From contig OY282494.1 in assembly GCA_958296385.1 (NCBI GenBank), forward strand, positions 1,773,537 to 1,837,536: a stretch of 64,000 bases of DNA, read 5' to 3'. Below are positions 46,270 to 52,615 of the stretch, piece by piece. Origin of the DNA: an uncultured Dehalococcoidia bacterium. GTDB lineage: Bacteria > Chloroflexota > Dehalococcoidia > Lucifugimonadales > UBA3495. Position 1 is the stretch's first letter, and each line of letters begins with the position of its first letter. The translations under genes were made by a program, and so were the position numbers. Below the pieces are notes generated by a model. That model had not been told where the DNA came from. It worked only from the letters and a program-made list of their open reading frames with translations, and ran no database searches.

Positions 46270-46394
46270 AAAATCATTCCTCAGCCGGCGTTGGATAGCG
46301 ACGCGCACATACCGGCCAGCCATCATAGCCCCCGGTATCGGTACGGCGTCAACCGGCGAACGACGGCGGAGCGGCGTTGTTCAGATGGATTGGT

Positions 46395-46880
46395 CAAGTC
46401 ATGATGGGTCATCCTTTGGGAGTGGGATTGGAGTTGGCTGGTATCGGGCGTTTATCGGGCGGTGGGTTCGGTTTGGTTTGGATGTTGCCGGAGATTCAAG
46501 TCGTTGTCAGCCCTACGGCCGGAGGTTGGTACGCAACTATTTTGGACCTTCATTTTACGTGTCCTGCCCTAATGAGAGGCAGCACGCGGGCTGAAGCTCG
46601 ATACCCTGCGGAGGCAGCCCGCGCCGTGAAAGCGGGGTCGGGACTACCCTTGCCGATTGCGATTTTTTGCTGACTGGCCGTGTTGACTTGAATCTCCGAC
46701 GATGTTGATGCGGTGTCCCCGATTTCCCAGGTGCGCCCTCTATATGAGAAACGGCTGGTAGCGGGGTTGGTTGGTTGATTTGCCCGATAGATGTAATCCT
46801 ACACGAACTGATGTGCGGTTGCAAGTAGCGGGGTGTCATTGATTTTTTGGATTTGGCGGGGGATTTTGACGGGGGGAGGG
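46395..46880 (+). repeat. Left arm of a ~0.5 kb inverted repeat around the MoxR/DUF58/transglutaminase operon
   Basis: This segment, read forward, matches the complement of 51940-52440 nearly throughout: GTTGGCTGGTATCGG and ATCGGGCGGTGGGTTCGG on the outside, a 210 bp element in the middle (46489-46698), GATTTGCCCGATA, and GTGTCATTGATTTTTTGG with ATTTGGCGGGGGATTTT on the inside. Similarity appears about 75-85% by eye, higher inside the 210 bp element. With the short flanks it fills the ~700-base gap 46270-46976, where I see no gene. Confidence 0.8.
46489..46698 (+). repeat. 210 bp element with 14 bp terminal inverted repeats, copy 1
   Basis: It begins CGGAGATTCAAGTC (46489-46502) and ends with the exact complement, GACTTGAATCTCCG (46685-46698). 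The inside contains CTTCATTTTACGTGTCCTGC and GGGCTGAAGCTCGATACCCT, shared with the copy at 52116-52332. It looks like a non-autonomous mobile element. No coding frame is convincing. Confidence 0.75.
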
Positions 46881-46976: not shown

Positions 46977-49538
46977 TTACGTTTCCCGGCGGCGCAGGGC
47001 GTGGAGTAGGAGGGGGGTGCGGAGGGCGGCCCAGGCTTGGGCTATGGTGGCGGTTTGGCTGGGGGGCGCGGGGCGGTGGGCGGCGTAGGCGTGGCGGGCG
47101 TAGGCGTCCACGATGGTGAATATGGCGGCGCGCTGTTCCGGCAGCGCCGCGCTGATGGCGGCGCCCCATTGGTGCGGCGTTTGGTGCTGTCGGGGGGCCA
47201 GCGATGCCGGGCTGCTGAGCCGGCGAAGCCGTCGGTAGGCGGTTGGCACGTCGCGCGGGGTTGCCAGCAGCGCGCGCCATGCTGTCAGGGCGGCAATCAG
47301 GATGATGAGTACGGCGGCGGCGCCCCCGGCCAGCCAGGGCAGCGCGCTTTGGGCCTGCTGGGCCCAAGTGGCGGCGATGCCCTCCGGCGGGATGGATTCG
47401 TTGGCGTCAATCAAATCCTCAAGTTCCTCGCAGTCCTCCTCAAAGTCGCAGGGCAATTGGCCCGTCGCATCGCCGCTCAAATCGCCAGCGTCCGGCCGGG
47501 GGGCGGCTTCGGGGGGCAAGGCGACGGGAATGGCCCGGCCGGGCGTGGGCTCAAAGGGAATCCAGCCGAACCCGTTGAAATAGACTTCCGACCAGCCGTG
47601 GCTGTGATGGTCGGCGACGAGGTACACCTGGGAGCCGTCAATGGGGTTGCCGGCGGTGTAGCCGGTGGCCATCCGGGCCGGGATGCCAACGCTGCGGGCC
47701 AGCACCGTCATCGCCGAGCCGAAGTATTCGCTGTATCCCTCACGGCTGTCGAACAGGAAATAATCTACGCCGTCGGCGCCAAAGGGCGGCGGCTCAATTT
47801 CCAGATTGTAGGCGTAGTTGTTTTTCAGGTACTGCTCAATCGCCTTGGCCCGGTCGTAAGGGGTTGCGGCGCCGGCGGTGACGTTGCGGGCCAGGACGGC
47901 GACGCGTTCCGGCAGATCCGGGGGCAGCTCGGTGTAGCGGGCCCACACCCAGGGAGGGTACTCGTCGCCGGCGGTGCGCAAGTCGTCGGGCTGGGCGGAG
48001 GATACCGCCGTGGTTACCTGATAGGGGTTGCCGGATGCGGCGTTGCCGCGGGCGGTGCGGACGGACAGCACGTCGGGCTGCGCCGGCACGGTTTCGGCGA
48101 CTACGGCGCGGGTAACGGCGCCGGTTTCGTCGCGCTCCACCGATTCCAGCAGGAACGCCGTCGGCAGCCCGGCGGCGATGTCCGGCGCGGCGACGGCGGC
48201 GTCCTGGGCTACCGCCGTCCGTATGCCGTCCACGGCCTGGGCCAGCGCGGGCGGCAGACGGTCGGTGGGGCTGGCGGCGCGCGGGTCGATGACGTAGCGG
48301 GGGGAGTCAAACGTTTCAATCCGCACGTCCCGGTTGGCGCCGATGACCTGGCCGCCGGCGAACACGCTGCGGCTGTCGTAGTTGGGAATGACCTCAAAGG
48401 TTACGTTGAACCGTTCCCGGTCCGGGCTGGGGGCGCTGTATTCAGGCTGCCAGCCGGGTTCTTTCAGCGTGGTGCCCTCGGAAATCCAGCCCTCGTGGGT
48501 GTAGGTGGCGTAGGAACGGGCTTTCCAGTACATCGGCACCGGCGAGTTGACCTGCAACACCGGCGTATCGGTGGGGTTGATGGTGCCCTGAAAGGCCAGG
48601 GCATCGCCCCAGATGCGGTAGGGCAGAGGACGGCGGGCCGGCAGTCCGGCGAACAGCCGGTTGAAATCCTCCTCCCAGCTGACCAGGGGGGAGCGGGTGG
48701 TGTTGTAGATGGCGTTGGCCGGCCCCCACTGGCCGCCGATGGGCAGCAGGAACGCGATGACCAGCGCCACCAGGGCCACCACCGCCGTATCGCTCATGGT
48801 AAGGATGCCCAGATGCCCGTCGTAGATGCGGCCTACCCGATCCCAGCGCTGGCGGGCGCGTACCGATTGCACGCAGCCGACCAACAGCAGGCCGGAGAAC
48901 AGGTAGATGCCGAGATAGATGCTGGCGTTGTCGGGCAGGAAGGTGAGGTTGGACAGCAGGCCGGCGGTGCCGAGCGCGAATACGCCCCAGAAGTTGCGGT
49001 AGCGGAAAAAGGCCCAGCCCGCCAGGTAGCCGGACACCCACGAGGCCAGCATCAAGCCGACGGCGAAAGGCAGCGGGTCAACGCTGATGCCCTCGTTGCG
49101 CGCGGCCGACAGCCACAGTCCCAGGCGTTGGAACAAGTCGGCGGCGGTGGCGATTTGCAGGGCGTCCGGCGCGGCGGCAACCATCAGCCAGACGATGATG
49201 CCGATGCCGGCCAACATTCCCAGCGGCAGCAGCAGGGCCGTCCATAGTGGAATCCGGCACAGCAGCAGGGCGGTCAGAAGGGACAGCAGCATCACCGACA
49301 CCAGCGGCGGCGTGGGGGCCCAATCGGCGACTTCTACCGACCAGACGACGACAATCATGTTGAACGCCAGCAGGCCGGCGCTCAGCCAGCCGTCCGGCGG
49401 GCGCAGCGCAACCAGCAGCGCCCACAGCCGGGCCGCCCACAGCCGGTCGGATGCGGAACCCCCCGCCGTCTCCGGGCGGCTGCCGGGTTCACGCCGGGCC
49501 ATGGGGGTGGCGCGGGCCGTTGTCGGCGCCGTTGTCAT
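46977..49538 (-). CDS. TgpA-like membrane protein with transglutaminase domain (catalytic Cys replaced)
   Basis: An 853-residue membrane protein: six or more N-terminal helices (residues ~40-290, DUF3488-like), an extracytoplasmic region, a transglutaminase-like core (~545-680), one more helix (~755-775) and a cytoplasmic DUF4129-like tail. The core has the fold signatures YDRAKAIEQYLKNNYAYN, SVGIPARMATGYTAG, HSHGWSEVYFNGFGW (His647) and FEPTPG. The expected cysteine in the GYC-type motif is Ser603 (EGYSEYFGSA; codon AGC at 47730-47732). It ends the MoxR-DUF58 operon. Such operons act in envelope or proteolytic surface functions; loss of protease-type activity is possible. Confidence 0.87.
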   Translation of the reverse strand: MTTAPTTARATPMARREPGSRPETAGGSASDRLWAARLWALLVALRPPDGWLSAGLLAFNMIVVVWSVEVADWAPTPPLVSVMLLSLLTALLLCRIPLWTALLLPLGMLAGIGIIVWLMVAAAPDALQIATAADLFQRLGLWLSAARNEGISVDPLPFAVGLMLASWVSGYLAGWAFFRYRNFWGVFALGTAGLLSNLTFLPDNASIYLGIYLFSGLLLVGCVQSVRARQRWDRVGRIYDGHLGILTMSDTAVVALVALVIAFLLPIGGQWGPANAIYNTTRSPLVSWEEDFNRLFAGLPARRPLPYRIWGDALAFQGTINPTDTPVLQVNSPVPMYWKARSYATYTHEGWISEGTTLKEPGWQPEYSAPSPDRERFNVTFEVIPNYDSRSVFAGGQVIGANRDVRIETFDSPRYVIDPRAASPTDRLPPALAQAVDGIRTAVAQDAAVAAPDIAAGLPTAFLLESVERDETGAVTRAVVAETVPAQPDVLSVRTARGNAASGNPYQVTTAVSSAQPDDLRTAGDEYPPWVWARYTELPPDLPERVAVLARNVTAGAATPYDRAKAIEQYLKNNYAYNLEIEPPPFGADGVDYFLFDSREGYSEYFGSAMTVLARSVGIPARMATGYTAGNPIDGSQVYLVADHHSHGWSEVYFNGFGWIPFEPTPGRAIPVALPPEAAPRPDAGDLSGDATGQLPCDFEEDCEELEDLIDANESIPPEGIAATWAQQAQSALPWLAGGAAAVLIILIAALTAWRALLATPRDVPTAYRRLRRLSSPASLAPRQHQTPHQWGAAISAALPEQRAAIFTIVDAYARHAYAAHRPAPPSQTATIAQAWAALRTPLLLHALRRRET

Positions 49539-49539
49539 A

Positions 49540-50814
49540 TCACACCGGACTTGCGCCGTCGGCCCGCGGCGTCGTTCCGGCGATTACCGGGGTGGACAGG
49601 GCTTGATTGACGTCGCCGCCGCGCGCGACTACGTAGGTGGGGATGCCGTGCTGGGCGAGATAATCGACGGCAACGCGGGCGGTTATGCCGGGGGCGGCGC
49701 CGGGCGCGGTGGGGGTGAACGTGGTGCGGTCGATGTAGCAGACGGTTACGTTGATGCCCTGGCGCCGGATGCTCACCAGCGCCGGCGCCCAGTCGGGCTG
49801 CTGCGACGACGTGATGACCATCAGCGTGTTGAATCCGCTCAAGTAGGGCCGCAAGTCGTAGATGAAACGCTCCAGCGACAAGGCGCCGTCGGCGTTGAGT
49901 CCGGCCAGCGTTTCCATCAGCGAGCCGAGCTGCGCCGGGCGGCGGTCGGGGGGCAGCATCCACCGGCTGGAACCGTTGGCGGCCAGACCGACGGGAACGT
50001 CCTGCTCATCCCAATGCTGTATCAGCGAGGCGGCGATGGTGACGGCCAGCTCCTCGGTGTTGTCGGGCGGCGCGCCGACGTGGGAGCGGCGTTCCATGTC
50101 CAGCAGCACCCAGGCTTGGGCGGATACGCCGATGTCAAACTCTTTGACCATCAGGCGGTTCATCCGGGCGGTGTAGGGCCAGTGGATGCGGCGCAGGCTG
50201 TCGCCGTGGGCGTACTCCCGCACCGCCGACGATTCGGGCGTGATGGCCGGCGTGCGGCGGGATAACGCGCTGTCGCTGGGCAGGTTGGCGAACCGGCGAT
50301 CCAAGTCGGGCAGCGGGACGGTGGAGGGCAGCACGGTGTAGGGCTGGTCGTTCAGGAAAGTGCGTTCCAGGCGAAACAGGCCGAAAGGGTCGCGGGCGGT
50401 TACCCGCACCCGGCCGGTGCGGTAGATGCCGCGTCGTTCCAGGTAGGTTGCGATGCGAAAGGCGCGCCGCTGGCCGCGCACGAGGGCAACGGTGCGTCCG
50501 CCGGGGTCGGCCAGGTCGGTATCCTCTACAACTTCCAGCCACGACTTGGGCAGGCGGGAGCGGTTGACCAGATGGATTTGCCCCTCCAGATAATCGCCAA
50601 CCCGCCCGCGCGTGTCCAGCCGGGTGAGGCGAACTTCCAGCCCGCGCAGGTTGAGCCAGGCCCAGACGTAGCCGATGCCGATGACCAGAACCAGCGTGAA
50701 AAGCAGGCGGTAGAAAAAGCTGAACCCCGTTCCCAGGGCATAGAACAATGCCGCCAGAATCAGCAGGCCCAGCAGGATTTGACTCCGATGCTGGCTGATG
50801 AATTGCCTGACCAT
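49540..50814 (-). CDS. DUF58 domain membrane protein
   Basis: A 424-residue protein with two N-terminal helices (ILLGLLILAALFYALGTGFSFFYRLLFTLVLVIGI), a beta-rich middle, and the C-terminal DUF58/vWA-like part with SSAVREYAHGDSLRRIHWPYTARMNRLMVKEFD. That motif is the family hallmark. DUF58 proteins work with MoxR ATPases and transglutaminase-like proteins in membrane-linked chaperone or envelope functions. It lies between those two partners, one base before the transglutaminase start. Confidence 0.9.
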   Translation of the reverse strand: MVRQFISQHRSQILLGLLILAALFYALGTGFSFFYRLLFTLVLVIGIGYVWAWLNLRGLEVRLTRLDTRGRVGDYLEGQIHLVNRSRLPKSWLEVVEDTDLADPGGRTVALVRGQRRAFRIATYLERRGIYRTGRVRVTARDPFGLFRLERTFLNDQPYTVLPSTVPLPDLDRRFANLPSDSALSRRTPAITPESSAVREYAHGDSLRRIHWPYTARMNRLMVKEFDIGVSAQAWVLLDMERRSHVGAPPDNTEELAVTIAASLIQHWDEQDVPVGLAANGSSRWMLPPDRRPAQLGSLMETLAGLNADGALSLERFIYDLRPYLSGFNTLMVITSSQQPDWAPALVSIRRQGINVTVCYIDRTTFTPTAPGAAPGITARVAVDYLAQHGIPTYVVARGGDVNQALSTPVIAGTTPRADGASPV

Positions 50815-50859: not shown

Positions 50860-51846
50860 CTAGGCGGCGCCCGGCACCGGCACGCTGTCCAGCAGGTCGT
50901 GCACCATTTGCTCGGAACGCACGCCGCGCATCCGGGCGGCCGGGGTTAGCACGATGCGATGGGACAGGACGGCCGGCGCCAGCTCTTTTACGTCATCGGG
51001 CAGCACGTAATCGCGGCCCCGTACCAGGGCCAGGGCCCGGCTGGCCCGGAACAGGCCCAGGGAGGCGCGGGGGGATGCGCCCAGGGCGGCGTCGTGGTGC
51101 TGGCGGGTGGCCTCGGACAGGGCAACGACGTACTCCCGCACCAGGCCGTCAACGTACACGCTTTGCGCCGCACGCTGCATATCAAGCACCTGCGCCGGCG
51201 TCGCCACCGCGCCCAGGTCGGCGATGGGGTGGGTGTGTTCCTGCTGGGCGATGATGGTCAGCTCCTCGTCAAACCGGGGGTAGCCGATGTTGATTCGCAT
51301 TAGAAACCTGTCCAGCTGCGCCTCGGGCAGTGGGAAGGTTCCCTCGTATTCGATGGAGTTCTGCGTTGCGATTACCAGAAACGGCAGCGACAGGGGGTGG
51401 GTTACGCCGTCCACGGTGACCTGGCGTTCCTCCATCGCCTCCAGCAGGGCGGATTGCGTCTTGGGCGTGGCCCGGTTGATTTCGTCGGCGAGGACTAATT
51501 GGGCGGCGATGGGCCCGGAGCGGAAAGTGAACTCGCCGCTGGACTGGTTGTACACGGACACGCCGGTAACGTCGCTGGGCAGCAGGTCGGGGGTGAACTG
51601 GATGCGGGAGAAGGTGCCGCCGATGGAGGTTGCCAGCGAGCGGGCCAGCATGGTTTTGCCCACGCCGGGCACGTCCTCAACCAGAATGTGCCCCTCGGCC
51701 ACCAGCGCGGACAGGGCCTGCTCAATCACGCCGTCCTTGCCCACGATGACGGTGGCAACGTTATGGGCGATGCGCTGCGCGACGGCGGCGGCGTCGGTGA
51801 TGTCGGCCGGCACGCCGGCGGGCGCGGTAGCTACCATATCTTGCAC
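50860..51846 (-). CDS. MoxR-family AAA+ ATPase
   Basis: A 328-residue AAA+ ATPase of the MoxR group. Walker [18 protein letters not shown], Walker [32 protein letters not shown], sensor [29 protein letters not shown] and the C-terminal lid ([29 protein letters not shown]) are complete. It is the usual first gene of MoxR-DUF58-TgpA operons and probably acts as an ATP-driven chaperone on its partners. GTG 51846 (AGGA upstream) or ATG 51837 may be the start. Confidence 0.93.
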
Positions 51847-51939: not shown

Positions 51940-52440
51940 AATCCCCCGCCAAATCCAAAAAATCAATGACACCGCCCCTCTTGCTAAATGTACATTCGTT
52001 CGCCATAATAAGCATATCGGGCAAATCGGTCAACCCCCACTGCCAGCCCGCTCTCCGGAGAGCGACCACTGGCAACCGGGGCCAGCACACCAAATCAAAC
52101 CGCTAGCACAACCGCCGGAGATTCAAGTCACCACGGCCACCCCGTCAGCATCCAAATCGCAATCGGCCAGGCCGACCCATCGACGCATCCACGGCGTGGG
52201 CGGTACTCCGCAGGGTATCGAGCTTCAGCCCGCGCGCTGCTCCCCCAAAGGGCAGGACACGTAAAATGAAGGTCCGTAATAGTTGCGTAAAAACCTTCCG
52301 GCCGTAAGGGCTGACAACGACTTGAATCTCCGACAACCAACACCACACCAAACCCAACCGAACCCACCGCCCGATAGACGATAGTCCGATACGGCACCCG
52401 ACCGATGCCAGCCAACCGCAAAGCGCTGAGGAGGACAGAT
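51940..52440 (-). repeat. Right arm of the ~0.5 kb inverted repeat
   Basis: This is the complement of 46395-46880, with the 210 bp element at 52116-52332 inside it and the operon's MoxR gene just inside the inner end. The outer part continues with slight extra sequence (TCGGGTGCCGTATCGGAC). It occupies most of the 769-base gap 51847-52615. The rest of that gap (52441-52615) holds no gene; a weak TACAAT at 52551 may be part of the next gene's promoter. Confidence 0.8.
52116..52332 (-). repeat. 210 bp element with 14 bp terminal inverted repeats, copy 2
   Basis: CGGAGATTCAAGTC at 52116-52129 and GACTTGAATCTCCG at 52319-52332 bound a 217 bp copy that is the complement of 46489-46698. Both copies have the same terminal repeat, supporting a defined mobile unit. 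Confidence 0.75.
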
Positions 52441-52615
52441 GATGCAATAGCCAGACCACCTTGAAACGGAACGCCGCCGTTCCGACATTCCCCCCGTCGG
52501 TATCCCGGCGGGGGCGCAAAGCAAACCGATAGGCCGGCGCAAGCGTAGGATACAATAGGGCCAGCCCGCCGCATCGCTGGCGGGGCCGTCCATTCCATCT
52601 TGCCGGGAGTATTGT

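Follow-up and report, generated by a model that had tools for sequence, protein, structure and literature searches.

A serine in place of the catalytic cysteine in TgpA-like membrane proteins of SAR202-type Chloroflexota: a probable Ser-His-Glu variant of the transglutaminase core

The window analysed here, a stretch of 64,000 nucleotides from an uncultured Dehalococcoidia bacterium, encodes a TgpA-like membrane protein (Table 1) with a serine where the transglutaminase core should carry its catalytic cysteine, which raises the question of whether the active site has been abandoned or operates with a different nucleophile. By homology, the protein is a member of the Transglut_core superfamily: its open reading frame scores 90.5 bits against the Pfam profile PF01841 (cut-off 23), and TgpA of Pseudomonas aeruginosa (6g49) is the sole family matched in the PDB by phmmer. 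The motifs occur in the order EGYSEYFGSAM...GIPARM...DHHSHGWSEVYF...FEPTPG, with Ser603 followed by His647 and Glu663, and Ser603 is aligned with the cysteine of GFCAHYAGAM in TgpA. The missing cysteine reported in the initial annotation is thus real (the AGC codon lies opposite the nucleophile of TgpA), and so are the histidine and the FEPTPG glutamate that it described as retained. His647 and Glu663 represent the catalytic His and Asp/Glu of Transglut_core domains; because Ser603 occupies the N-cap position of the catalytic Cys in the core helix, we do not call the protein a transglutaminase. A search of the NCBIfam profiles with the open reading frame yielded no match, and the TgpA_N/DUF3488 domain (PF11992) was not detected at E 1e-3, despite the presence of an N-terminal helical bundle. 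The source genome (a single contig of 3.3 Mb) contains two Transglut_core genes, the second of which encodes a protein with an apparently normal cysteine site (SGVCQDKTH...ETHAW).

Table 1. Location of the TgpA-like gene, its active-site codons and the adjoining genes in the window.
Feature	Position	Strand	Basis or remark
TgpA-like membrane protein, 853 aa	46977..49538	-	N-terminal helical membrane part, extracytoplasmic Transglut_core, C-terminal helix and tail
Transglut_core domain (residues 549-664)	47547..47894	-	Pfam PF01841, E 1e-25
Ser603 codon AGC, nucleophile position	47730..47732	-	Aligned to Cys of 6g49; opens helix 603-616
His647 codon, second triad residue, strand 646-654	47598..47600	-	Sequence, alignments and AlphaFold model
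Glu663 codon, third triad residue, directly after strand 658-662	47550..47552	-	Sequence, alignments and model
N-terminal helices, presumably embedded in the membrane (residues 29-264)	48747..49454	-	AlphaFold helices
Acidic stalk closed by Cys pair C697...C703	47430..47450	-	Alignment of Ser- and Cys-type proteins
DUF58 protein, 424 aa, separated by one base from the downstream TgpA-like gene	49540..50814	-	Pfam PF01882, E 5.8e-16
MoxR-type AAA ATPase, 328 aa, first gene of the MoxR-DUF58-TgpA cluster	50860..51846	-	Pfam AAA_3, E 1.1e-63

The AlphaFold model, which was built on an alignment of 57 proteins, has a mean pLDDT of 88.7 (about 98 in the core of the domain). Ser603 is the first residue (N-cap) of its helix, and His647 lies in the neighbouring sheet. 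In the canonical papain/transglutaminase layout, the core helix starts with the nucleophile (PMC10318531), and in the model the placement of Ser603, His647 and Glu663 is that of this layout. The best fold matches in the PDB (Foldseek) are the TgpA structures 6g49 and 6g4h, with E-values of about 1e-14; the match to 6g49 (E 4.5e-14, prob 1.00, TMt 0.69) has an rmsd of 8.0 over the aligned length. TgpA (PA2873; PMC3507681) is therefore the closest structurally characterized relative by both sequence and fold, and shares the membrane anchor, the extracytoplasmic Transglut_core, the histidine, and an acidic residue that is likewise a glutamate. It differs in its catalytic cysteine and in the membrane part, which in the protein studied here lacks a match to TgpA_N/DUF3488. 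Moreover, transglutaminase activity has been measured for TgpA (PMC3507681).

Relatives were sought in 147 genomes of the order represented by the window and 400 genomes of the phylum, to which 120 further fetched stretches and 80 loci from named genomes were added; removal of near copies left a non-redundant set of 228 domain sequences. The triad reads Ser-His-Glu in 105 of them, Cys-His-Glu in 101, and Cys-His-Asp in 11; nine carry Phe, Pro, Val, or Tyr at the nucleophile site, and two carry Ala or Gly. The closest named relatives belong to the SAR202 cluster, Dehalococcoidia, and unclassified Chloroflexi MAGs. Serine is present in all six genomes of the same genus and, among the genomes whose domain was fetched, in 79 of 92 within the order (27 of 32 families, including that of the window), in 3 of 14 from elsewhere in the class, and in 2 of 58 from elsewhere in the phylum (55 of the 58 have Cys), counts that represent biased frequencies because sampling followed similarity to the Ser protein. 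The Cys-type TgpA-like proteins from the remaining Chloroflexota, from Actinomycetota, and from Armatimonadota share the same domain, with full-length alignment in the Chloroflexota. Outside that phylum, Cys occupies the nucleophile site in every sampled top match that could be read there. This applies to the best 30 matches among 296 genomes from the phylum of a Rubrobacteraceae MAG and to 24 matches among 43 genomes from that of an Armatimonadetes MAG. Serine is an old state that has become fixed in most of the order.

The serine is encoded by AGY in 90 and by TCN in 15 of the 105 non-redundant Ser sequences, and the tree requires six switches between these codon classes, with serine retained throughout. 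There is no single-base path from AGY to TCN that avoids another residue, and the usual stepping stones are Cys and Thr; a route via Cys is plausible, since Cys relatives occur in the same family. In a tree of all 228 sequences constructed without the three triad columns, the starred branches cannot be reconciled with fewer than four changes of the Ser label, and a single clade of all Ser sequences is rejected for a 73-row subset (lnL difference 116, p-AU 3.7e-5), which implies that Ser and Cys have interchanged. The trees show repeated origin or reversion of Ser, most clearly, outside the main clade, in a pair of Ser sequences with TCN codons in family f87 (L055 and L168) that falls within a Cys clade and has a neighbour with Ala (L162). 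The residues flanking the histidine (S646 and G648) were considered as partners that the serine might need, but this was rejected: seven Ser sequences outside the main clade (L055, L168, L251, L245, L103, L033, and L037) have Ala or Tyr before and Ala or Ser after the histidine, like the Cys types; both residues are lineage markers.

The distribution of serine bears directly on the trivial explanation, i.e., an error of sequencing or assembly, or a point mutation that arose recently in the source genome alone. This explanation is refuted: all that speaks for it is that TGC and AGC are one base apart, whereas serine is shared by all six same-genus genomes and most of the order, and in two codon classes. 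Because the site is invariant in a 23-row alignment of Ser-type proteins and 105 of the 228 non-redundant homologues carry Ser, Ser603 is neither a chance occurrence nor a base error. The comparison with Chloroflexota relatives that had been proposed as a check therefore bears out the serine, and the one-base change from TGC to AGC holds as the simplest route, albeit not as a local event, since the state is shared across most of the order. It is also very unlikely that the nucleophile has moved, with the thiol coming from another cysteine and Ser603 left as a relic. Although Cys94, Cys222, Cys697, and Cys703 are present, and a pair equivalent to the last two occurs in 20 of 38 Ser-type but in none of 19 Cys-type proteins, no cysteine column persists across the Ser-type proteins, which argues against the refuting condition raised initially, a true nucleophile aligned elsewhere in the domain. 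Moreover, the pair is absent from 18 of the 38 Ser-type proteins and located outside the domain, in a linker (residues 686-720) with a pLDDT under 50.

The main rival to an active enzyme is a retained binding site, a possibility that we regard as less likely. The domain would then be a pseudoenzyme without catalysis that binds a peptide or glycan of the cell envelope, with Ser, His, and Glu forming a hydrogen-bonded putative binding site, and the MoxR-DUF58 cluster would use it as a sensor or scaffold. The replacement of Cys by Ser commonly weakens thiol enzymes, and three relatives that kept the histidine show Ala or Gly in place of the nucleophile (L162, L113, and L127), one of them in family f87 next to Ser members, which indicates that Ser can precede loss. 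Catalytically inactive relatives of the same fold are also on record (EPB42 and FBXO21; PMC10318531). However, the nine relatives from the same class with Phe, Pro, Val, or Tyr at the nucleophile site (L134-L140, L042, and L048), which are apparently true pseudoenzymes of the same family, provide a natural control. Their triads include F-Y-N, F-F-S, P-Y-S, V-M-A, and Y-Y-D. All nine have replaced His by Tyr, Phe, or Met, and eight have lost the acid, whereas both His and Glu are kept in 105 of 105 Ser sequences. Real decay thus looks different from the Ser type, a contrast that is strong in raw numbers but without phylogenetic statistical power because the bulky variants represent only about three independent events (a phylogenetically corrected comparison of His loss with nucleophile type comprises only one to three independent pairs). 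Also the persistence of Ser across switches of codon class argues against a pseudoenzyme. Between the two alternatives offered by the initial annotation, a loss of activity is less likely, because the whole triad is intact throughout the Ser sequences and lost in the bulky-residue relatives, and a serine acting as nucleophile would be the better fit.

We therefore favour the reading that the TgpA-type domain is functional with a Ser-His-Glu triad, its activity being predicted (probability about 0.6). The Ser form looks like a working alternative rather than a broken copy, because the swap and the intact active site have been kept in dozens of Chloroflexota lineages. The protein would most likely be an active extracytoplasmic acyl enzyme, and probably a hydrolase. 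In the proposed mechanism, the triad Ser603-His647-Glu663 would replace the Cys-His-Asp/Glu triad in a membrane-anchored TgpA homologue; His647, positioned by Glu663, would activate Ser603, which would attack the carbonyl group of an amide or ester in a cell-envelope substrate via an acyl-ester intermediate. Hydrolysis (as deamidase, peptidase, or esterase) would be favoured over crosslinking, because an acyl-ester is less open to amine attack than a thioester. Among papain-like enzymes, bleomycin hydrolase and congopain have some activity left when their Cys is mutated to Ser (PMC10318531).

The genes for a MoxR-type ATPase and a DUF58 protein that precede the TgpA-like gene form a cluster that is kept in relatives. 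Every one of the 31 Ser loci whose upstream flank reaches at least 4 kb has DUF58, and 30 of the 31 also have MoxR; among the Cys loci in the same search, DUF58 lies ahead in 13 of 27, 11 of which also have MoxR, although distant DUF58 homologues may have been missed because the queries came from the window. The two partners may assemble or switch the enzyme, acting from the cytoplasmic side. More tentatively, and with slightly less than even confidence, the Ser type may constitute a native Ser-His-Glu class of the transglutaminase fold with repeated origins from Cys within Chloroflexota. This class would have displaced the Cys form from the MoxR-DUF58 cluster in most SAR202-type bacteria and exchanged crosslinking for hydrolysis.

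A replacement of Cys by Ser is already published for other papain-like families. Menin, 2HLY (APC5867), DUF2272, DUF2145, and DUF3750 have a conserved Ser for the papain-fold Cys and retain the two other active-site residues (PMC10318531) but belong to other families of the superfamily. The same combination is present in all 105 Ser sequences; the definition of serine-based papain-like proteins also includes a negatively charged active-site pocket, the activity of such families is considered speculative by the authors, and Transglut_core/TgpA is absent from their list (PMC10318531). In the literature searched, which did not extend to most subscription journals, we found no report of a native Ser-for-Cys replacement in Transglut_core/TgpA and no paper covering both SAR202 and transglutaminase. 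Evolution rarely exchanges a Cys nucleophile for Ser or the reverse, and such exchanges are hard to observe in progress. The coexistence of both forms, several switches, and decayed relatives in a conserved gene cluster of a single phylum represents a natural experiment on whether Ser can function in a transglutaminase fold; it also means that a profile match alone is an unsafe ground for annotating Ser-type proteins as transglutaminases.

In several genomes, a Ser-type copy is accompanied by a Cys-type protein with a transglutaminase domain (L097, L123, and L133 in one genome; L095/L128, L099/L125, and L089/L129), and the Cys-type partners often reside in very long open frames of up to about 2460 aa. 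A general loss of cysteine from Ser-type proteins was considered but rejected; they contain slightly more other cysteines than the Cys type (2.18 vs. 1.53 per protein), and the second Transglut_core protein of the source genome has an apparently normal cysteine site. The stalk between the domain and the C-terminal helix is very acidic (e.g., CEFEDEEDC; L181-L198 and L202), and the stretch with the cysteine pair looks like a disulfide-closed acidic loop. Outside the cluster, similar peptide strings (DLHFTCPAL...RAEARYPAE) are encoded on opposite strands at 46377-46673 (+) and 52128-52598 (-), which suggests an inverted repeated element flanking the cluster.
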